64,000 bases of DNA from a virus. The notes under the pieces are model-generated. The model worked only from the letters and a program-made list of their open reading frames with translations, searched no databases and was not told the origin of the DNA. Positions 1 to 63,563 of this stretch are shown here, piece by piece. Made by a program: the position numbers and the translations under genes. The stretch lies in the IMG/VR virus record IMGVR_UViG_3300031754_000002, positions 1 to 64,000 of that record; one strand, given 5' to 3'. Each line of letters opens with the position of its first letter. Within the stretch, counting starts at the first letter, position 1.

Positions 1-352
1 CGACCACGACCACGACCCCGACCCCGACCGCGACCACGACCGCGACCGCGACCACGACCCCGACCGCGACCACGACCGCGACCGCGACCACGACCACGAC
101 CGCGATCCCGACCACGACCACGACCCCGACCGCGACCACGACCGCGACCCCGACCGCGACCGCGACCCCGACCGCGACCGCGACCGCGACCGCGACCACG
201 ACCACGACCACGACCACGACCGCGACCGCGACCACGACCCCGACCCCGACCGCGACCACGACCGCGACCACGACCCGAGGACAGCCGTGCCGGTCACGAC
301 GACCGCGACCACGACCACGACCGCGACCGCGACCCCGACCACGACCACGACC
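1..352. repeat. Hexamer tandem repeat (CGACCN)n
   Basis: Almost the whole stretch is a run of 6-bp units of the form CGACCA, CGACCC or CGACCG. It is broken once at about 274-299 by a non-repeat insert. No start codon or ribosome site opens a frame in it on either strand, although the repeat keeps several frames open (Gly-Arg or Asp-His/Arg alternations). It lies immediately downstream of the minus-strand gene ending at 356. It could be a noncoding repeat, the end of a low-complexity gene lying to the left, or an assembly-collapsed array; the sequence does not decide. Confidence 0.85.
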
Positions 353-355
353 GCC

Positions 356-6617: not shown

Positions 6618-6740
6618 GCAGGCGTGGCGGAATTGGTAGACGCACCGGACCTTTAATCCGGCGGCAACACGTCAGAACCCTGAGACCAAGAATCAAGGGC
6701 GTCCTGACCGGCCATGTGGGTTCGACTCCCACCGCCTGTA
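6618..6740 (+). tRNA. Class II tRNA-like gene with oversized variable arm (Leu-like, loop CCTTTAA)
   Basis: The acceptor stem pairs GCAGGCG with CGCCTGT, the D-arm is Leu-like (GGCGGAATTGGTAGACGC), the anticodon stem is CCGGA/TCCGG and the T-arm is GTGGG-TTCGACT-CCCAC. The seven-base anticodon loop is CCTTTAA, giving UUU at positions 34-36 with C instead of the near-universal U at position 33; a shifted reading would be UUA. The variable region is about 54 nt and can fold by GTCAG/CTGAC enclosing CCCTGA/TC-AGGG, roughly four times the normal length. No CCA is encoded. The amino acid cannot be assigned with confidence. Confidence 0.6.
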
Positions 6741-12219: not shown

Positions 12220-13392
12220 TCAGAATTCGCCCGGCAGCACGTTTTCCCAGGTCACGCCAGCGCCGACTCCTTCCCACGTCAATGCGCCTTCAATCCAGGC
12301 TCCTTCAACTTCCACGACCTCATAGAACAGTCCGGCCGGCTTGACCGAGTTGATGGCTTCGTACAACGCGTTGCTTGCTTTCCCCAGCGGTACGAGCACC
12401 ACGAAGAAATAGGCGTCCGGTTCGCCGTTGGCGTTCGTCCGCTCCTCGATCGTGAACGGCTCCCCAACACCAAGCACCCGTTCAATCGCTGCTTCCATCA
12501 ACGCCAACGTACCCCGCGCGAACCCGGAGTGTGCTTCCAGGATCGCGCGCGCTTCTGCTTCTGACGCACCAACCGGGATGACGGTCCCTACGAACATCCC
12601 GAGATACGCGAGTGCGTCAGCAGGGCATGTTTCGACGTTGAACAAGGTGCCGAACCCCGGCACGTAGCCCGGTAGGACCGTGACGCTATCGCCTTTTACA
12701 CCGCTCCATTCATAGCCCGGCGAGTCACCATCTACGTATGGTTCGGATGTGGAAACGGCAGCAATCAGGATGTTGACTTTAGCCGCTTCGATAGTGCCTA
12801 CGGAGAATGCTACCATGCCCGAAGCACTCGGTGTCAACGTGACTGAGTGTCGTGTCCATGTGCTGCCACTCTGTGTGATATCGACGCTAGCCGTACCACA
12901 CGCTCCCGAGCCGAGCGATAGCCGCACTTTCACACCGGCCACCGCTTCATACAATGACACGTGAACCGTGATCGGTATGCCTTTCGTAACTGGCAGTATT
13001 TCTGCGGTGTGCGCGCCTTCCTGCGTAGTGCTACCGGCCGTACTGATATCAAGGTAGCTGTCTAGCCCGAAGATCGACGTGGCCTGCGAATACCCAGGGA
13101 TGATATAGACTTTGTTCGTCGCCCCTTCGCCTATCAGCCAGCTCGCGTTGTTAGACCATCCCGCAGCAGCACCAAGATACGTGTCATGCGCAAAGCTCGG
13201 GTTCGGGATCAGGTTCGCCGTCGTGCTCGGAGTGCCGTCGCTGCCCTGTTCTTCCGCTAGTCCCAAGGCCGGCTGAAACATCGCGCCCAGCGCGTTTGTG
13301 AGTCTCGCCAAATCAGTCTTCCCGGCGATCTTCGGGCCGGTATCCCACGGGGCCAGACGTTCTAGCAGGCGTTCACCGAAGGTGGTACTCAT
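12220..13392 (-). CDS. Tail protein I-like baseplate wedge with inserted carbohydrate-binding-like domain
   Basis: Start ATG 13392 has a GGGAGGA site. The N-terminal helix region (FGERLLERLAPWDTGPK, ARLTNALGAMF) and the later segment LGMFVGTVIPVGASEAEARA with GTLALMEAAIERVLG fit P2 gpI-type proteins, which follow baseplate J. Between them, residues about 60-210, lies a beta-sandwich-like region (NLIPNPSF, GWSNNASWL, TRHSVTLTPSAS) typical of CBM or discoidin-like modules. The protein probably connects fibres to the baseplate. It is downstream of the J gene, as usual, separated by a plus-strand endonuclease gene. Confidence 0.75.
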   Translation of the reverse strand: MSTTFGERLLERLAPWDTGPKIAGKTDLARLTNALGAMFQPALGLAEEQGSDGTPSTTANLIPNPSFAHDTYLGAAAGWSNNASWLIGEGATNKVYIIPGYSQATSIFGLDSYLDISTAGSTTQEGAHTAEILPVTKGIPITVHVSLYEAVAGVKVRLSLGSGACGTASVDITQSGSTWTRHSVTLTPSASGMVAFSVGTIEAAKVNILIAAVSTSEPYVDGDSPGYEWSGVKGDSVTVLPGYVPGFGTLFNVETCPADALAYLGMFVGTVIPVGASEAEARAILEAHSGFARGTLALMEAAIERVLGVGEPFTIEERTNANGEPDAYFFVVLVPLGKASNALYEAINSVKPAGLFYEVVEVEGAWIEGALTWEGVGAGVTWENVLPGEF

Positions 13393-36890: not shown

Positions 36891-39433
36891 TTAGATCGTC
36901 GGCGCGTACACCGATGATGTGAATTTGATCGTCGTGCCGATGCCAGCGCCGACAGGCGGGGCGAAGCCCGTCCCCGACGCAATTGCTAGCGACTGGCCGT
37001 AGCGCATCAAAAACGCGTAGTACGAAAAGACCTGGAAGCGAATCTCCAGTGTCCCGGACAGTACCTCGCTGAGTGCCCGCGTACGCAGCAGACCCTCAAA
37101 CAGCCATGCGTCGTCGAACTTCGCGGCCAGCGCAATGTCGGCTGTACCGGCGCCTGGCACTCCTTCTTTGTCTTTCGTCGGGATGTTCGCGTCAACATAA
37201 ACGTTGTGCGGGCCGAACGGCAGTGAAGCGACAAGCCCCTCTGCGGGATCTTCGCCAGCGCCGTACAGCGCGTCGATGTTGAACGGACCGAAGTCCGAAC
37301 GGTTAGCCAGCACACGGCCAGCCTTCCCTTCCAGACCATCCAGCTGTGTCCCGAACCAGTACCAACGGCGCGGGTTCGTGACCACATGCACGTTCTGCAC
37401 GCTGAACCGGGTTGTGGCGATCTGCGACACCATCGCCGCCATCGCCATGTTGAACGCCTGACCAACTGGGGCTGCTTCTTCCCAGTTGACTTCGTTTGCC
37501 TTCCAGTTCGACGCCGGGTACAGACCCTTAATCAAACCAGCGTTCAACGCACCAGTGTTCGTGCCCGGTGCTGTAAGAACTTCCCTGTCGAGCTGACGGT
37601 TGAAGTCAGCGATTAGATCCTCCATGATCGCCTCGTCCAGGTGGTACGGCGACTGCTCCAAAAGCTGGATAGCGATGTCGCTCTGGCCCGCCAACGTCTT
37701 CACGTTCGCGGTCACAGCTTCATCCGTCCAGTCCTTTTCTTCCACGGGCGCCGAGTCCGCTGTCTGCGGGCGAACCGCAGTCAGTTCCTTCAGCTTCGGC
37801 AGGTTGATGCTATCCGTGCCCTCCGGGAGTGCCATCCTACGACACAGGTCCGCAGTGATTCTACCGGCACGGAGACCCTTGACGAACTCTTTCATCCAAA
37901 GCGGCGGAACAAAGACGATGTGTTACCGCGCGAACCTGCTAGACTATTAGGGTGGCTCACCAACCGACTCCACTACAAGCCGCCTGGTTCGCCGGACTCT
38001 TTGAGGGCGAGGGTTGCATCTCTATCGAGAAGAATGGGGCCGTCGGCCTAACGGTCAAAATGACCGACCGGGATGTCATCGAGCGTGTCAACGCTCTCTT
38101 CCCCTGCAACAAGATCGGCGTAATCGATCCGAAGCCAATGCGACCTCACTACAAGCAGCCGAAGCGCGCTTATACTTGGCGCATACGTAAGCCGGATACG
38201 GTTCGGGACATACTCGAACTGATCCTGCCCTATCTCGGGGAGCGGCGCAGCACTAAAGCTATAGCCCTGCTAACTCACCTCGATACTCGGCCTGGTACCG
38301 GCGGCACCCACCGCGCGAGGACCCATTGCGCCAAGGGGCATGAATACAGCCCCGAGAACACCTATGTGAATCCCGCCAATGGCTACCGTAGCTGCCGCAC
38401 TTGCCAACGAGCATCGGCAGCAGCCCACCATCGCGCGCACCGTGACGAGCTGAATGCCCGTCAGCGGATACCAGGTGGTCGCGGTCCCTACAAAAAACGC
38501 TCTGTTTCCTAGTCTGTGTTTTTCCTAGTCTGTGTTTCGCGTGGGCTAGGTCATTTCTGCCTAGCTCTTGCGGTTTACCATCCCGCAAGACCGGACTATA
38601 TCTTCACCCTCAGATGTAGGGTGCAACGGTATCTAGTCTCTACGGCGCCCGCAGTACTTCGCGGTTCCCTCGGTATTAGCCGGTACTTCCCTTTTGGTGG
38701 CCTTCACCGATATCCCGTTGAGTTTGCCTGGCGCTTACGCGGCCAGGAGGGCCCTTGACCCGCCTTGTCCCGGCAACCGGTTAGGGTTGACGCGCTGCTC
38801 TTCCACTGCCTGGCGGACGAACGGATCGCCTTCCAGACCATGCGCACGGATACCCAACGGTCCTGACAGGTCACGGGTGATACCCCGCTCTGCCCGGTCC
38901 ATCTCCTCAAGCGTGCGAACTTCCTGTCGCTTGACGATCTCGGGGATCTCCACCCGCATCTCCGTCGTGTGTTTGTCGATGCGCTCCTCGCACGACGGGT
39001 CATTCAGGGTCGCCCGAACTCCAGGGAGATCCCTTGCTGCGAGATCACGGAAGAACGAGTGCCCGTTACCGCGTTCGTACGTCAGTGGCTCTTTGACCAC
39101 TTCGATACGCTCGCGTGCCTCCGGCCGTGAAGCCTCCTGCGCGTCTGCTTCCCTGCGCGCAAGCAGCTCCTCCTCGTCGATCCGGCGGTCTAGCGTTTTG
39201 ATCTCCGCCATCCGCTGGTCGTGTGCTGCCTCGAACGCGCCTTCGTCAAGCGCGAACTGTGAACGCTCATCCTCCGTAACCTCGTCGGCCTTGCGGCCCT
39301 CGAAGGTCTCGCGCTCTTTACGACGAGCAGTCAACGCTACTGCTGCAGCATCGACTAGATCCTTGCGTTTGTCCTGCAACTGCTCAAGGATCGTACGCTC
39401 CTCGGTCACTACCTCCTCTGTATCAGCGTCCAT
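36891..39433 (-). CDS. Second major capsid protein, split by a group I intron
   Basis: Exon 1 is 39433-38758 (ATG after AAAGGAGG) and exon 2 is 37915-36891. Splicing joins GQGG to FFVPPLWMKEF in frame and gives 566 residues. The N-terminal about 150 residues are a scaffold-like charged coil (delta-domain type). The rest is an HK97-fold capsid: RVNPNRLPGQGGF, KDWTDEAVTANVKTLAGQSD, LLEQSPYHLDEAIMEDLIAD, RWYWFGTQLDG. The same landmarks occur in the capsid protein at 44755-46059 (RVNPSRVTGGEFF, FTDAAVESW, QLEQSP), so they are paralogues. Without splicing exon 1 ends after 17 extra codons' worth of intron sequence, and only a truncated protein would be made. Confidence 0.85.
37937..37945 (+). promoter_or_regulatory. 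Leaderless extended -10 promoter (TGC TAGACT)
   Basis: TGC-TAGACT is followed by six bases (ATTAGG) and the GTG at 37952. It matches the geometry before the endonucleases at 21876 and 53745. It lies inside the 3' end of the group I intron, on the antisense strand. Confidence 0.6.
37952..38512 (+). CDS. LAGLIDADG-type homing endonuclease, antisense within the intron
   Basis: The GTG start at 37952 is six bases from a -10 element. The 186-aa protein begins with a LAGLIDADG-like helix (AAWFAGLFEGEGCISIEKNG) with the acidic Glu pair, and a second part (VRDILELILPYLGERRSTKA) typical of single-motif enzymes. The C-terminus has a Cys/His module (HCAKGHEYSPENTYVNPANG, then CRTC) seen in phage endonucleases. 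It is encoded opposite to the intron and capsid gene, so its expression is independent of capsid transcription. Confidence 0.85.
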   Translation: MAHQPTPLQAAWFAGLFEGEGCISIEKNGAVGLTVKMTDRDVIERVNALFPCNKIGVIDPKPMRPHYKQPKRAYTWRIRKPDTVRDILELILPYLGERRSTKAIALLTHLDTRPGTGGTHRARTHCAKGHEYSPENTYVNPANGYRSCRTCQRASAAAHHRAHRDELNARQRIPGGRGPYKKRSVS

Positions 39434-39506
39434 AAGACGCCTCCTTTGTGTGATGCCCACTGAGGGCTTTTACTGGCCCCCAGGCGATGCTCGACCAGCG
39501 CGAAGG

Positions 39507-39535
39507 CTCACACCCGGCGATCAACGGGGTGTGAG
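39507..39535 (-). promoter_or_regulatory. Hairpin upstream of second capsid gene
   Basis: CTCACACCC and GGGTGTGAG form a perfect 9-bp stem with an 11-nt loop, between the tRNA-Met gene and the capsid start. It may aid tRNA release or stabilise capsid mRNA. Confidence 0.45.
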
Positions 39536-44754: not shown

Positions 44755-46059
44755 CTAGTATTCCGCACTCACTTCTAGTCCACTGCCTTCCATATAGGCA
44801 AGGCCCGTCGGATAACGATGCAACGCTGCCGCATAGCCATGAAGCTGGAACCGTGCCTGCAACGTCCCGGACAGAACCTCCTTGAACACGCTCGTATGCT
44901 TCGGCGACTCGAACAACACACTGTCGGTCGGACGTGCGCACACAATCACGTCGCGGTTTTTCCCTGCCCCAAGAGTCGCAGGAATCGCATCTGACAAAAA
45001 TGTCGGCCAGCCAAGGATCGGGGGAGCGACAGCAGGCCGCGAGTCATCGAACGTGTACGCCACGGGAGGGAGCGCTTGATGCCCAGGAACCGCGAGAGGG
45101 AGGTTCTGCAAATCCTCAGCACCCCCGAGATAGCACCAGCGAGCGGTCCGCATCAACCACACCTCCGGCGGACAGTTCCGTGCATCCCCCAGCTTTGCCG
45201 CGACCTGCGACAGCGCAGCGAACATTTCATAGCCCTGTTTACCCGTGTACTGCACTACCGACACGCCACCCGCACCGGTAGTGAGATTCAGCACACCCGC
45301 GATTCGCTGGTTCGCTTTCCCCGTGCCAGTAAACAGCGACTCCTCAAGCCTGCGGTCATAGGACTCCAACAGGTCCTTCAACACCACTACATCCAAGGCG
45401 GCAGTAGCCGGTGATTGTTCAAGCTGCTGCATCGAACAATCCGCCTGCCCCGCGAACGTCTCACACCACGATTCAACCGCCGCATCCGTGAAGTCCCGTT
45501 CCGGCGCAGGCGTGACATCAGATACTCCCGGCGCGTGAGTGCCTTCCACGATACGCGGCAGGTTCACTTCAACCACGCCCGTCGGCAAATCGAAAGTAGG
45601 GATCATGCTCGCGTAAACCCGCTTGGCCCTCGCGGCAGTGGCAAAATACTCATTGGCCCACCACGGCACCCCAAAAAACTCGCCACCAGTGACACGGCTA
45701 GGGTTCACACGAAACTCCGCGCCCTCAAGCCTCCGCTGCTGCAACCTTTCACTCTCAACAGCAATCTCTTTGGCGTGACGCTCCAACCGTGCTCTCGCCC
45801 GCTGATCATTGCTGATCTGCGCACGCGCCACGTCCGCGAAGTAGCTTGCCTGCTCCTCGCGTGGAAGATGACCCTGAAAGCGTTCATACACCATCGGCTC
45901 ACGACGTATCTCAACGCGCGGTGAAAGCCGCTGTAGCTCAGCATGGTACGCACGAGCGCTAACAACCGCTTCCGCCTCGATACGTGCCCGGACTTCGGCC
46001 GGGATCGCAGCGCCACGGTCCTCCTCGACAGTCTCGTCAAGCTCTAGCGTGTCGCTCAT
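44755..46059 (-). CDS. Major capsid protein, HK97 fold (first copy)
   Basis: A 434-aa protein following the prohead protease with an overlapping start. The N-terminal about 100 residues are helical (ERLQQRRLEGAEFRVNPSRV), the usual delta-domain/N-arm. The HK97 core follows (FFGVPWWANEYFATAARAKR, DAAVESWCETFAGQADCSMQ, QLEQSPATAALDVVVLKDLL, MRTARWCYLG, FKEVLSGTLQARFQLHGYAA). The second copy at 36891-39433 has matching landmarks. Its stop is TAG, which matters for codon-use arguments. It is presumably the principal shell subunit. Confidence 0.9.
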   Translation of the reverse strand: MSDTLELDETVEEDRGAAIPAEVRARIEAEAVVSARAYHAELQRLSPRVEIRREPMVYERFQGHLPREEQASYFADVARAQISNDQRARARLERHAKEIAVESERLQQRRLEGAEFRVNPSRVTGGEFFGVPWWANEYFATAARAKRVYASMIPTFDLPTGVVEVNLPRIVEGTHAPGVSDVTPAPERDFTDAAVESWCETFAGQADCSMQQLEQSPATAALDVVVLKDLLESYDRRLEESLFTGTGKANQRIAGVLNLTTGAGGVSVVQYTGKQGYEMFAALSQVAAKLGDARNCPPEVWLMRTARWCYLGGAEDLQNLPLAVPGHQALPPVAYTFDDSRPAVAPPILGWPTFLSDAIPATLGAGKNRDVIVCARPTDSVLFESPKHTSVFKEVLSGTLQARFQLHGYAAALHRYPTGLAYMEGSGLEVSAEY

Positions 46060-51225: not shown

Positions 51226-53704
51226 CTACTTAGCTGGCGTCAACACCTTCCCGTCACCGTTCGATGACGGCACAGCCGGCTCCGGTGCATACTTCGCTTC
51301 GATGGCCTGTTCCGCTTCCGCCATCACTTTTTCAAGTAGCGTCGTGTTAATCGGCGAGTTCAGTTTATCGCCGTCCGGCAACGCCGGCAGGTCGAACAGT
51401 GCTCGTGCGTCGTTCGGCGTGAAGTAGCCTCCGAGCGTCCCGAGCGAGCCAGCGTTCGCGCGCTCAAGGGTATCCCCGCGCAGACGGTGGCTCATGTCGA
51501 TCGCCACGAACTGCCCTGGCGGGTGGATCGCGGTCATCGCGGCTTCGTAACGGCCCGTATAGTCCTGCAACGTGTTTTTCGTAAAGCCTAGCTCCTGCTG
51601 CTCGATCCCCCGATAATCGACCCCACGAGTTGTGAACAACCACGCCTTCGGCTAGGAAGGAGTGATTACCCGCAACCGCGAGGTCATAGACTGGCACCTC
51701 AACTTTCGAGCGGTCGATTTTGATTACACGCTGCAAGATAACGTCGTCGTACTCCCAACCGTAGCTCGGGCTCTGCCGGCGACCATCCCAGCCGCCAACG
51801 TTGCCGCCCGTCCATCCCTCGTCATAGCGCCCTAGTCGTATTGCTGGTCGAGTGACGAGTCGCGCCCGCTTACGCGCGCTATTGGCACCGATACGACTAT
51901 TGAAGAACACAGTCGAGAGAGCAAGTTGATACTTCTGGCCCGACCGCACACGACGGCCAGCAATCACCGCGTCACACGGCGGTCGTCCCAGGTGGACTCG
52001 TCCAGCCGGAACACCCACTTGGATGCACAAGTGGCGGATATCCTCTAGCAGGAGTCGGTTACACGATGCGAAGCTAATCGCCCCTGCCTTGTTGACACTC
52101 CCGTCTGCGTCGAGATATCCGCGCAGGAATGCTAGCTGTAGCTCCGGCTTGAGTTCGTACACCCAACCCGGCACTCGCTTTGTATGCGCGTCGCCCGTGA
52201 ACCCGCAGTCGTCAAGCAGTTCGCGTGCGTCGGCCGACGAGAAGCGCGTCCTCGTGCCTGTGCGTATCCCCCGATTGGGTGCGTTGTCTGTGTAGGGTTC
52301 TACGCCGAACTCATCGCGTACGACCTGGCAGTAGTGCTCCATGTGATCGGGCTTGCTCTCGTGGGCGAGCTCGAAACGGTTTTTGTCCTGTGAGCCATCG
52401 CCCGTGTAGAGTCCACAAAGCTCCATCGCGCCGACCGTAAGCTGGCGCCCATTGGGCGCATACTCATCACCCTGGTCCCCGAAGCCATGAGGCACGAGCA
52501 GGTAATCCTTGATCGTAACCTCATCGGCGCGAACCCAAACCGTTTCCCAGGCGCAGTCGCCACTCGCACGGCCCTCTGGCCGTCCAAAGTATCGGCGCAC
52601 TGGCAAAACATGGTTTGCCGTCAACTTGACAGTGCGAGCCGATGTCTGGATGCTCAGGAGAGGCTTGTGGCCGGTTAGTTGCCGCGAGACGACCGTTGCA
52701 GGCTCGATCCCGCGCTCACCGAGCGACCAAACCTCCTCGCCAGCCTGAATCTCGCAGATTGGCCGTGGTCCCTGCGTCGTGAACACCTGCGCTTCGGCGG
52801 GCAGACACGAAACTCGTTCAGTCAGTCCGATCATGTGCGGGGGGCACCGAAAGATCGTGGATGCGATCTCTGATGCCGACCATTGAAGCGATTCTAGGAA
52901 TTGGGAGTCCTGCGGGGATATCGTGATCGGCTTGATTTCCGTGTCACCCGTCACGACGGCTGGAAGATGCGAGCTATTCAAGCCCTGGTGCGCCGCCATA
53001 AACGAGCGAACCATTTTCTTTGTCTGGTCCGGCGACAGGTCACCCTTGACCTGGATCACGATCGACGGGTTCGCGCTATTGCGGAAGTACTGTAGCCCAT
53101 AGGTGGACTGCGAAAGCGACTTGCTAAACGCCAAGCGCTGCGCCTCAATTGGGTTAATGCCTTCCAACATTCCCGGAAGCCAGAGGAGCTTGACGTGAAA
53201 TACATCTTGCCTTGGCACAACTTTATTGAAGAACCGATACTGGAGTTCTCCTTTACGCAGCCGTTCGACATGCGCACTGTCGGCCGGTATGGGCTTGATC
53301 TGCGTCGGGTAGAGCTGCTTGTCGCGGCTGATGATCTGGCCGAAGAAGTTGCCACGAATGGCGAGGGACGCGACGAACTGGACGATCCAGTCGAAAAGCC
53401 CAATCTCGCAGTATGGTTCGGTGAGGAGGGGAGAGGGTTTTAGCTCTTTCGCCTTTCGTAGTACCCTGTTGTTGAGCAGCAGAACGGGGGAGTTCGCTAC
53501 CGAGCTAGAAAGAAGGTTAGCGCATGAGTAGACGGTCGCTATCGAGAGCGCCGCCTCTTGGCTTACACCCATGCCTCCAGACCCACCGAATCCCCCGATT
53601 TCTGAGTTCGTAGGCTACGGGGGAACGCTGTTGCCCCATTCGGTGCCCGGCCGCGCCGCGCGTGCGTCCATTGTCTGTGACAGCGCGCGAAGGATCAACG
53701 ACAT
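51226..53704 (-). CDS. Portal protein with intein, an in-frame stop and a frameshift
   Basis: The start ATG 53704 (MSLILRALSQTMDARAARPG) reads 29 codons to an in-frame TAG at 53615-53617, then continues PTNSEIGGFGGSGGMGVSQ. The portal body has family hallmarks (AALSIATVYSCANLLSSSVA, FDWIVQFVASLAIRGNFFGQ, DVFHVKLLWLPG, FRCPPHMIGLTERV). An intein interrupts it after TERVS. After the intein the frame is off by one base near a run of five Gs (51607-51611); the correct C-terminus, GIEQQELGFTKNTLQDYTGR, lies one frame over and runs to 51226. Whether it is functional depends on whether the TAG and the extra base are real. Confidence 0.8.
51629..52807 (-). mobile_element. LAGLIDADG intein in the portal (393 aa)
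   Basis: It begins at Cys (CLPAEAQVFTTQGPRPICEI) after TERVS and ends VHN before Ser of the C-extein. Splicing block A (Cys1), block B (the conserved THxxH-like region is here LTANHVLPV), block F (VYDLAVAGNHSFLAEGVVVH) and block G (HN|S) are all present. The endonuclease motifs are LCGLYTGDGSQDK and FLRGYLDADGSVNKAG, the two LAGLIDADG helices with their acidic residues. The insertion point in the portal lies next to a conserved pore-region motif, where inteins commonly reside. Confidence 0.9.
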
Positions 53705-53744: not shown

Positions 53745-54389
53745 ATGACCAAACCAAAGGATGACCAACGCTGTCCGCGATGCCTTATCCGCCCCAAGAT
53801 ACCTGGGGTCGGCCGCCGTGTTACGGCACTTGCCGCACATGTGGCAAGCCGGCGCCAAAAGAGGGTAAGTACTACCGAACCTACTGCCGTAGCTGCGAGC
53901 CTAAGCGCGAAAACTGCTCGCAATGTGGCAAGCCACGCGATGGCTCACATGCTTCATATTGCGTCGCGTGCTTCAAAGAATATGAGCGAGACTGGGCGAA
54001 GGCGAATCCCGAGAAAGTCCGCCTCAAGGAAAGGGGATGGCGCAGCCGTAACGTAGAAGCACTTCAGCGCAAGGAACGCCGTCGGACTCTAGCCAAACAT
54101 GATCTCACAACCGATGAGTTCGCCACGATGCTCGCCGCTCAAGACAGCCGATGTGCCATCTGTCACCGAACGGCCGCAGAAGCTGGGCGGCCGTGGGACC
54201 CGTCTCCACGTCGATCATTGCCATGCGACGGGCGCGATTCGCGCATTGCTCTGCAATCATTGCAATATCGGGCTCGGGTGTGCTGGCGATAGTCCCGAGC
54301 GTCTGCGTGCCATGGCTGACTACCTCGAACGGCACTCTAAGAAGCCTGTCGAGTCCGTCGCGCCTGACGTTCTACCCGTTTCAGCTTGA
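53745..54389 (+). pseudogene. Endonuclease VII/HNH-type gene with two frameshifts
   Basis: The leaderless start ATG 53745 opens one frame. From about 53780 the protein-like sequence is in another frame (TCRTCGKPAPKEGKYYRTYC, HDLTTDEFATMLAAQDSRCA, ending CAICH). The HNH core then returns to the first frame (RLHVDHCHATGAIRALLCNH, then CNIGLGCAGDSPERLRAMAD). The Cys/His pattern and DHCHATG are those of the recombination endonuclease VII family, often free-standing homing genes in phages. The two indels (around 53770 and 54200) compensate. Either this is decayed or the sequence has errors. Confidence 0.65.
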
Positions 54390-55681: not shown

Positions 55682-55773
55682 TGCGCCAGATGGGACTCGA
55701 ACCCACATCCGCCTCCTTGAAAGAGAGGTGCTGGGGACCGGGTTACGGTCTCTACCAATTCAGCTACTGACGC
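55682..55773 (-). tRNA. tRNA-Glu (UUC)-like with an expanded D-loop
   Basis: The acceptor GCGTCAG/CTGGCGC, D-stem GCTG/CAGC, anticodon arm CCTCT-CTTTCAA-GGAGG (anticodon UUC) and T-arm GTGGG-TTCGAGT-CCCAT all fold. The D-loop is 27 nt instead of 8-11 and contains a GACCG-TAACC-CGGTC hairpin. The total length is 92 nt. The normal AATTGGTAG D-loop start is kept, so the extra about 17 nt looks like an insertion. CCA is not encoded. Function depends on whether the D-arm insert is tolerated or processed. Confidence 0.65.
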
Positions 55774-59009: not shown

Positions 59010-59849
59010 ATGAACAGGTTGTCCACCGAGAAGCGCGCCGCGATCCTCGGAATGATGGTTGAGGGCAACAGCCTTCGCGCGACGACCCGCATGGCAGGCT
59101 GCTCGATCAACACCGTCTCGAAGCTGCTGCTGGACATTGGTGAGGCATGCGCCTCCTACCAGGACGAGCATCTACGGGACCTGCCATGCAAGACGATCGA
59201 GGCAGACGAGATTTGGTCGTTCGTCGCCTACAAGGAGCGAAACAAGCCAGCCGAGATGAAGGGCACGTTCGGCACCGGCGATGTCTGGACATGGACGGCG
59301 CTCGACGCCGACTCCAAGCTCATCGTGTGCTGGTACGTGGGCGACCGGAAATACGAGGACGCCGCCGCGTTCATGCTGGACCTCAAGGACCGTCTACGCG
59401 ACCGCATCCAGCTCACGACGGACGGGCACGCCGCCTACCCGAATGCGGTCGGCCTGGCGTTCCGCCACAACATCGACTTTGCGCAGCTCATCAAGCAGTA
59501 CGCAGCGGACCCACGCACCGGACAGGCTCGCTACAGCCCGCCAGTCTGCACAGGAGCGCGCGTCCGTGTCGATCGCGGCAACCCGGACCCCGCGAAGATC
59601 AGCACGTCCTACGTCGAGCGCCAGAACCTCACGATGCGGATGGGTATGCGCCGCTTCACACGGCTGACCAACGGCTTCTCGAAGAAGCTCGACAACCACA
59701 TGGCCTCCATCGCCCTGCACTTCATGCACTACAACTTCGGCCGTCCGCACACCAGCCTCAAGAACCCCTACCCGCGCACGCCAGCGATGGCCGCAGGCGT
59801 CGCCGACCACATCTGGACCCTGCAAGAGATCGCGGGGCTACTCGATTGA
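59010..59849 (+). CDS. IS1-type transposase, 279 aa
   Basis: ATG 59010 (MNRLSTEKRAAILGMMVEGN) is chosen; a start three codons earlier exists. N-terminal HTH (LRATTRMAGCSINTVSKLLL) is followed by the DDE domain: ADEIWSFVAYKERN (first Asp), LTTDGHAAYPN (second Asp) and SYVERQNLTMRM (Glu). It is single-frame, unlike the two-frame insA/insB arrangement of classical IS1. It ends 15 bp before the right inverted repeat, so the element is complete and probably active. Confidence 0.85.
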   Translation: MNRLSTEKRAAILGMMVEGNSLRATTRMAGCSINTVSKLLLDIGEACASYQDEHLRDLPCKTIEADEIWSFVAYKERNKPAEMKGTFGTGDVWTWTALDADSKLIVCWYVGDRKYEDAAAFMLDLKDRLRDRIQLTTDGHAAYPNAVGLAFRHNIDFAQLIKQYAADPRTGQARYSPPVCTGARVRVDRGNPDPAKISTSYVERQNLTMRMGMRRFTRLTNGFSKKLDNHMASIALHFMHYNFGRPHTSLKNPYPRTPAMAAGVADHIWTLQEIAGLLD

Positions 59850-62591: not shown

Positions 62592-63563
62592 ATGGAGTCT
62601 ACGACGCTTGTGGGCCTGATCGAGGAGTTCGGCAGCGAGGAGAAGTGCCGCGCCTATCTTGAGGATCTGCGTTGGCCCGCTGGCCCCGAGTGCCCGCGCT
62701 GCGACGAGCCGACCACCGTTTCGCGGATCGCCTCGCGCAACCAGTTCGAGTGCGACAAGTGCCGCTACCAGTTCTCGGTCACGGCTGGGACGCTGTTCCA
62801 CGACTCGCACCTGCCGTTGTGGAAGTGGTTCCTCGCGGTCTACCTGATGTGCGAGAGCAAGAAGGGCATCAGCGCCAAGCAGCTACACCGGATGCTCGGC
62901 GGCTCGTATAAGACGAGTTGGTATCTCTGCCACCGCGTCAGAGCGGCAATGGGCGAGGACGAACAGCCGCTACTGACCGGCACGGTGGAGGTTGACGAGA
63001 CCTACGTCGGCGGCAAACGCAAAGGCTACGGCGCCGGATATCGCGGGAACAAGGTCATCGTGGCCGGTGCGATCGAGCGCGGCGGCGACATACGCCTACG
63101 GCTCGTCCCGAACACCCGCCGCCACAACCTGGAGCAGTTCATCGACTCCACCGTCTCAGACGACACGGAGGCGGTCTACACGGACGAGTTGAAGTCCTAT
63201 GACGGCATCGCGGGCGAGAACCACCAGACCGTCGAGCACAAAGCCGAAGAATGGGTGCGGGGCGAGGTTCACACGAACAGCGTCGAGTCTGCCTGGAGCC
63301 TGCTCAAGCGCTCGATCGTGGGGACCTACCACCATATGAGCGTCAAGCACCTGCCCGCGTATCTGGCGGAGATGGAATGGCGCTTCAACCGCCGCGAGAA
63401 CCCCTACCTATTCAGAGACACGCTGCTGGTGCTCCTCCACGGAGACGCGCTGCCCTACAGCGTTCTGATCGAACGCGACGACCCCGGCGAGCGCCAGCGC
63501 GAGAACGACGCACTCATGCGGCGAGAGGCGAAGCGTCAGGCACGCCAGCAGCGCCCGTGCTAG
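62592..63563 (+). CDS. ISXO2/IS1595-type transposase, 323 aa
   Basis: ATG 62592. An N-terminal zinc ribbon (CPRCDEP, then FECDKCRYQFS) is followed by WKWFLAVYLMCESKKGISAK and the DDE-type domain: VEVDETYVGGK (first Asp), VYTDELKSYDG (second Asp), VHTNSVESAWSLLKR (His/Asn...Glu). These are the landmarks of the IS1595 family. I could not find its inverted ends with confidence. Its length is normal. Confidence 0.85.
   Translation: MESTTLVGLIEEFGSEEKCRAYLEDLRWPAGPECPRCDEPTTVSRIASRNQFECDKCRYQFSVTAGTLFHDSHLPLWKWFLAVYLMCESKKGISAKQLHRMLGGSYKTSWYLCHRVRAAMGEDEQPLLTGTVEVDETYVGGKRKGYGAGYRGNKVIVAGAIERGGDIRLRLVPNTRRHNLEQFIDSTVSDDTEAVYTDELKSYDGIAGENHQTVEHKAEEWVRGEVHTNSVESAWSLLKRSIVGTYHHMSVKHLPAYLAEMEWRFNRRENPYLFRDTLLVLLHGDALPYSVLIERDDPGERQRENDALMRREAKRQARQQRPC

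Follow-up and report, generated by a model that had tools for sequence, protein, structure and literature searches.

The portal gene of the phage studied here, which was recovered by sequencing of environmental DNA, may have been the target of two different homing elements: a LAGLIDADG intein that interrupts it, and an adjacent homing endonuclease gene (HEG), free-standing and of the Endonuclease VII type. The same gene contains an in-frame TAG at codon 30, which recurs in one distant phage and is lineage-specific and probably homing-associated, and a break in the reading frame after the intein. We assign a probability of roughly 45% to the full account, in which two homing elements on one portal gene are combined with a homing scar, a likely restart of translation and a post-intein lesion.

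The stretch analyzed, here called the window, covers positions 1 to 64,000 of IMG/VR record IMGVR_UViG_3300031754_000002, which is 105,858 bases long. Arrays of CGACC-type hexamers are present at both ends of the record (window positions 1-354 and the end of L011). No exact terminal repeat was found at the record ends, but since both sit in the same CGACC-type repeats, the record looks near-complete. It encodes a tail sheath, a tape measure protein, a head protease, and two capsid-like genes, and its 105,858 bases contain a single portal gene, with no second intact copy. Only a distant relationship (38%) links this portal to that of Omegavirus, the cluster J mycobacteriophages. Transposase-like genes (IS1/rve-like and IS1595-like) were observed at window positions 59010-59849 and 62592-63563 on the plus strand, and at L010:5683-6525 on the minus strand. 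A 390-aa gene at 12220-13392 (minus strand) carries an in-frame insertion of about 160-190 residues relative to its 203-aa homolog in a related phage (G001). Elsewhere in the record, at L010:9326-12480 (minus strand), a gene for an RtcB ligase adjoins a Ro60/TROVE gene, with a sub-threshold match to YrlA (Y RNA-like) at L010:12358-12480; together, these may form a phage Ro60-Y RNA-RtcB module.

The portal gene lies on the minus strand and starts with an ATG at 53704 (Pfam Phage_portal, 3.7e-45). For domain searching only, the frame from 53704 was read through the TAG, which yielded the portal, the intein, and an out-of-frame tail. The HK97-family portal profile (PF04860, 321 positions) matched on either side of the intein, at profile positions 2-245 and 244-320. 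No single continuous frame encodes this portal as deposited, given the TAG at codon 30 and the change of frame after the intein. The first 29 codons (53618..53704, minus strand; MSLILRALSQTMDARAARPGTEWGNSVPP) form a leader that represents the portal N-terminus: it has a positive codon score in its own frame, and ends in EWGNSVPP, a stretch common to L053 and L033 and fused to the portal in relatives. The N-extein (52808..53614, minus strand) matches portal proteins in both Pfam and PHROG and shares 77% amino acid identity with the closest relative, L002. The C-extein (51226..51612, minus strand), which accounts for the second Pfam match, is out of frame with both the N-extein and the intein, and its codon score is best in its own frame. 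In comparisons with L002, dN/dS was approximately 0.14 for the N-extein and 0.17 for the C-extein; purifying selection thus acts on both (dN/dS ~0.15).

The intein itself (51629..52807, minus strand) is almost certainly real. The initial annotation had described a complete 393-residue LAGLIDADG intein, running from Cys1 to HN|S, and both the translation and the Pfam matches (Intein_splicing, 1.1e-11; LAGLIDADG_3, PF14528, 8.4e-12) bear this out. Cys1 lies at 52807 and Asn393 at 51629, directly followed by Ser. All residues of a class 1 intein are present, including C1 in block A, TANH in block B, and VYDLAVAGNHSFLAEGVVVHN followed by S in blocks F/G (HN|S), a complete set from which we infer that it is self-splicing. 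Two LAGLIDADG motifs with their catalytic acids, LCGLYTGDG and FLRGYLDADG, are also retained. The insertion site lies directly before a near-invariant [TS]xWGxG[IVL] motif of the portal, which 137 of 145 distinct relatives have at the same spacing. Comparison with intein-free portals, which the annotation had proposed, showed a seamless extein in L002 (TEKT|TAWGRGIEQ) and many others, apart from a 7-nt difference discussed below, and the portal matches of the best 80 relatives all had the intein-free length.

Portal-protein inteins (PORT) have been described in cluster C1 mycobacteriophages (PMC5050341), where, as here, an intein resides in a phage portal protein. The best phage match of our intein, however, was not a portal but an intein-like stretch in the tape measure protein of Gordonia phage BearBQ (28.6%). 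In the PDB, its sequence weakly matched DnaB inteins and PI-PkoII, an intein endonuclease; no relatives were found among viral contigs, and AlphaFold, run on the lone intein sequence, gave a pLDDT of 29.

Two further self-splicing elements were detected. The capsid gene (36894-39436, minus strand) is split by a group I intron of about 845 bp, located between GQGG and FFVP; it matches Rfam RF00028 at 38567-38769 (E 2.9e-4, below the gathering score), and a LAGLIDADG ORF lies at 37952-38512 on the strand opposite the capsid gene. The gene for TerL, outside the window (record positions 65545-68298; L009:1545-4298, minus strand), contains an intein as well. TerL of a related phage, G002, also carries an intein, homologous to this one (32%) but occupying another site. 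The annotation had counted two essential virion genes with different self-splicing parasites; the portal intein stands, but the TerL intein brings the number of such elements to three. Among cluster J mycobacteriophages, which have genomes of about 110 kb and portals 38% related to this one, most carry a TerL intein, and LittleE combines a capsid group I intron with an opposite-strand LAGLIDADG ORF, at a site motif similar to that of the capsid intron here (PMC3706429). The phage in this study differs from cluster J in its contractile-tail (sheath) gene set and in its portal intein. In addition, the capsid-like genes at 36891-37895 and 44755-46059 (minus strand) form a paralogous pair, about 30% identical, that G001 and G003 have as well.

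The TAG at codon 30 (53615..53617, minus strand) follows two proline codons and, as originally annotated, is in frame with both flanks. We surveyed viral and bacterial contigs for stops and frameshifts at 162 portal loci. Besides the window phage, only one phage, G002 (contig L053/L127/L122), had a stop within the portal proper; L175 showed another, but this lay where its alignment ends, near the C-terminus. A search along the TerL lineage added five contigs with a portal match, whose N-termini were outside the residue-by-residue stop check, and a search by DNA pattern for further portals with the TAG returned G002 only. In G002, too, the stop is a TAG and falls at codon 30; the sequence leading up to it reads GAA TGG GGn AAC AGC GTn CCn CCG, so that EWGNSVPP precedes the TAG in both phages. 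At this site, 24 of the 27 bases GAATGGGGnAACAGCGTnCCnCCGTAG are identical between the two, and every difference falls at a third codon position. Since the two portals are otherwise only about 50% identical, a shared sequencing error is not credible, and by our own reckoning the match in position would arise by chance about once in 400. From these comparisons, the TAG is very likely real. The annotation had considered both breaks in the gene to be signs of either decay or sequence errors; the recurrence of the stop in G002, next to an HEG in both phages, argues against this for the TAG.

Both phages contain extra nucleotides at the TAG: 6 in the window phage compared with L033 or L002, and 9 in G002 compared with L126. 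A genome-wide reassignment of TAG was rejected, because TAG is a common true stop, ending 21 of the 59 strong ORFs in the genome, and no tRNA with a CUA anticodon was found in the phage. Two tRNA-like genes that default ARAGORN missed were observed at 6618-6740 (plus strand) and 55682-55773 (minus strand), with odd insertions (51 nt in the variable region; about 20 nt in the D-loop). Neither has a CUA anticodon, and both were rejected as suppressors. No unusual or conserved RNA structure was detected at the TAG (z-scores of 0.20 for the window and -1.63 for L053).

The two phages with the TAG also share an unusual neighbor. Divergent from the portal, an Endonuclease VII-type free-standing HEG lies at 53780..~54350 on the plus strand, with its frame broken at around 54163-54168. 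Its homolog in G002 (L122:6063-6659) is intact (PF02945, 1.6e-23) and also divergent from the portal; F-CphI, which cyanophage S-PM2 encodes as a free-standing homing endonuclease, was among its best named phage matches. Among all loci fetched, an HEG adjoined the portal only in these two phages, where the portal is the first gene after the divergent gene. In several close relatives that lack the TAG, a same-strand small ORF runs directly into the portal. Because only the two phages with the TAG carry the adjacent divergent HEG, the TAG insertion can be read as a homing-associated scar, a reading we consider about evenly balanced. When G002 is compared with L126, the relative with the closest portal, pS jumps between the body (0.41) and the leader (0.75). 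The shift falls at the TAG, as would be expected of a conversion tract that ends at a cut site.

We therefore considered a scenario of "intronless homing," in which the HEG would have homed into the 5' region of the portal gene, carrying its flank along, and the TAG insertion would mark the edge of the converted tract, spoil the enzyme's own cut site, or both. The "collaborative homing" of F-CphI and the "intronless homing" of SegF (PMC6083498) offer precedents, in which a free-standing Endonuclease VII-type enzyme similarly adjoins its probable target gene. For F-CphI, an intron in psbA interrupts the target gene and blocks self-cleavage (PMC6083498). Here, by contrast, the supposed blocker is a TAG insertion of 6-9 nt, the target is putative, and the enzyme gene in the window is broken, which counts against the homing account. 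The link between HEG and TAG could also reflect ancestry alone, since only two genomes with both features are known and these belong to one TerL lineage (72% over the extein they have in common).

If the leader ends at the TAG, portal translation would most likely restart at codon 45, an in-frame ATG (53570..53572, minus strand) with which a 702-aa ORF (53572-51464) begins. This candidate start is upstream of the Pfam portal domain and would keep it whole, because the domain begins at residue 57, but its Shine-Dalgarno spacing is poor. Restart is the simplest route to a portal protein, and we give it even odds. Leaky passage of the Pro-Pro-UAG would be the next option, and competes with restart in that conservation of the peptide extends across the TAG, the insertions keep the frame, and Pro-Pro slows termination; readthrough nevertheless appears unlikely, at about half the weight given to restart.

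A more specific version of the latter is that the TAG is a programmed leaky stop, at which low-frequency readthrough or ribosome sliding sets a low dose of portal protein (12 per virion), the portal gene now being first in its operon. Termination is known to be poor when Pro-Pro precedes the stop (PMC3985003; PMC7246954), and the codon and its context have been kept in two phages, with the peptide conserved in frame on both sides. The lengths of the inserts, 6 and 9 nt, are multiples of three, and a homologous stop is very unlikely to arise by chance. However, no phage suppressor tRNA was found, the TAG of the window is free of unusual RNA structure (z 0.20), and a C-terminal PP only modestly affected expression in published work (PMC7246954). 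As a leaky stop would also leave the correlation with the HEG unexplained, we consider it improbable.

The break after the intein is of a different nature. The stretch directly following the intein (51613..51628, minus strand) is 7 nt longer than in L002. The extra nucleotides lie between W-G-R and G-I-E, where L002 reads W-G-R-G-I-E; their exact placement is ambiguous due to local repetition, and they may reach a few nucleotides into the G run that follows. An extra base in this run of five Gs had originally been proposed as the cause of the frameshift, which the comparison with relatives contradicts: with one G removed, the loop (W-G-R-L-S-G-I-E) still contains two residues that all of 145 distinct relatives lack. 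A single extra G was therefore rejected. None of the 162 portal loci surveyed had a frameshift, and because both exteins are under purifying selection, the break should be recent, an error in the consensus, or recoded. We consider it highly probable that it is a lesion or an error, in line with what had been annotated for this site, and in its deposited form the portal probably does not function.

The breaks in the HEG, at the TAG and after the intein cluster within 51.6-54.2 kb, while the other genes that were aligned, about 21 kb in total, contained no real break on inspection. One stop seemed to be present when the capsid was aligned (38759-39511), but it precedes the likely start of the capsid and was dismissed. 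Such clustering would fit a sequence or assembly error in a low-coverage stretch, by which the post-intein shift and perhaps that of the HEG arose while the gene is intact in nature. That this is the sole portal of a near-complete-looking record, and that the frameshift occurs in none of the 162 other loci, also speak for an error. On the other hand, a 7-nt addition is atypical of homopolymer errors, and the shared TAG would be left unexplained, making this explanation doubtful on balance. The same three breaks, together with the transposase-like genes close by (59010-59849 and 62592-63563), could instead indicate that the portal and the HEG are pseudogenes in a defective copy, with the TAG, the HEG shift, and the post-intein shift as successive lesions. 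This is less plausible still, as the exteins remain strongly conserved, the TAG recurs in the otherwise intact portal of G002, and a search for integrase or prophage evidence found none.

Two further readings deserve mention. The C-terminal part could be translated separately from a TTG at 51639 and assemble with the N-terminal part, as there is an open ORF at 51639-51226 with a Shine-Dalgarno-like GAAGG five bases ahead of the TTG. No relative among the 162 loci has a split portal, however, and splicing would give the N-terminal part an out-of-frame tail of 54 residues, rendering this highly implausible. Alternatively, programmed recoding at either site, or at both, could allow the portal to be expressed, which would make these sites a family of very short elements for translational bypass within an essential structural gene. 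The extra nucleotides lie between synonymous codons (CCG TAG CCT in the window, CCG TAG GTT CCA in G002, and CGA TTAT CGG after the intein), so that the pattern of the relatives would be restored if the ribosome made a short hop. This is reminiscent of bypassing in T4 gene 60 (PMC11194080), where a UAG also directly follows the take-off codon and matching codons flank the gap. The likeness is geometric only, as the gaps here are 6-9 nt, no stable stem-loop was found, and there is no known signal in the nascent peptide. Recoding at the post-intein break, while possible, would be without parallel here, and we regard the proposal as a whole as very unlikely. Within the homing account, the seven extra nucleotides would be either a lesion that arose recently in this copy or a consensus error, and not a case of programmed recoding.

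Two distant phages that have an in-frame stop at equivalent positions of the same essential virion gene, with a free-standing HEG linked to it, provide a concrete and testable case. Frame errors in metagenomic sequences should not be dismissed automatically when they occur near homing elements, while the break after the intein holds the opposite caution. If the stop is a leaky one, phages would set the dose of their portal by it; if the homing reading is true, homing would leave tolerated stop-codon scars in essential genes.
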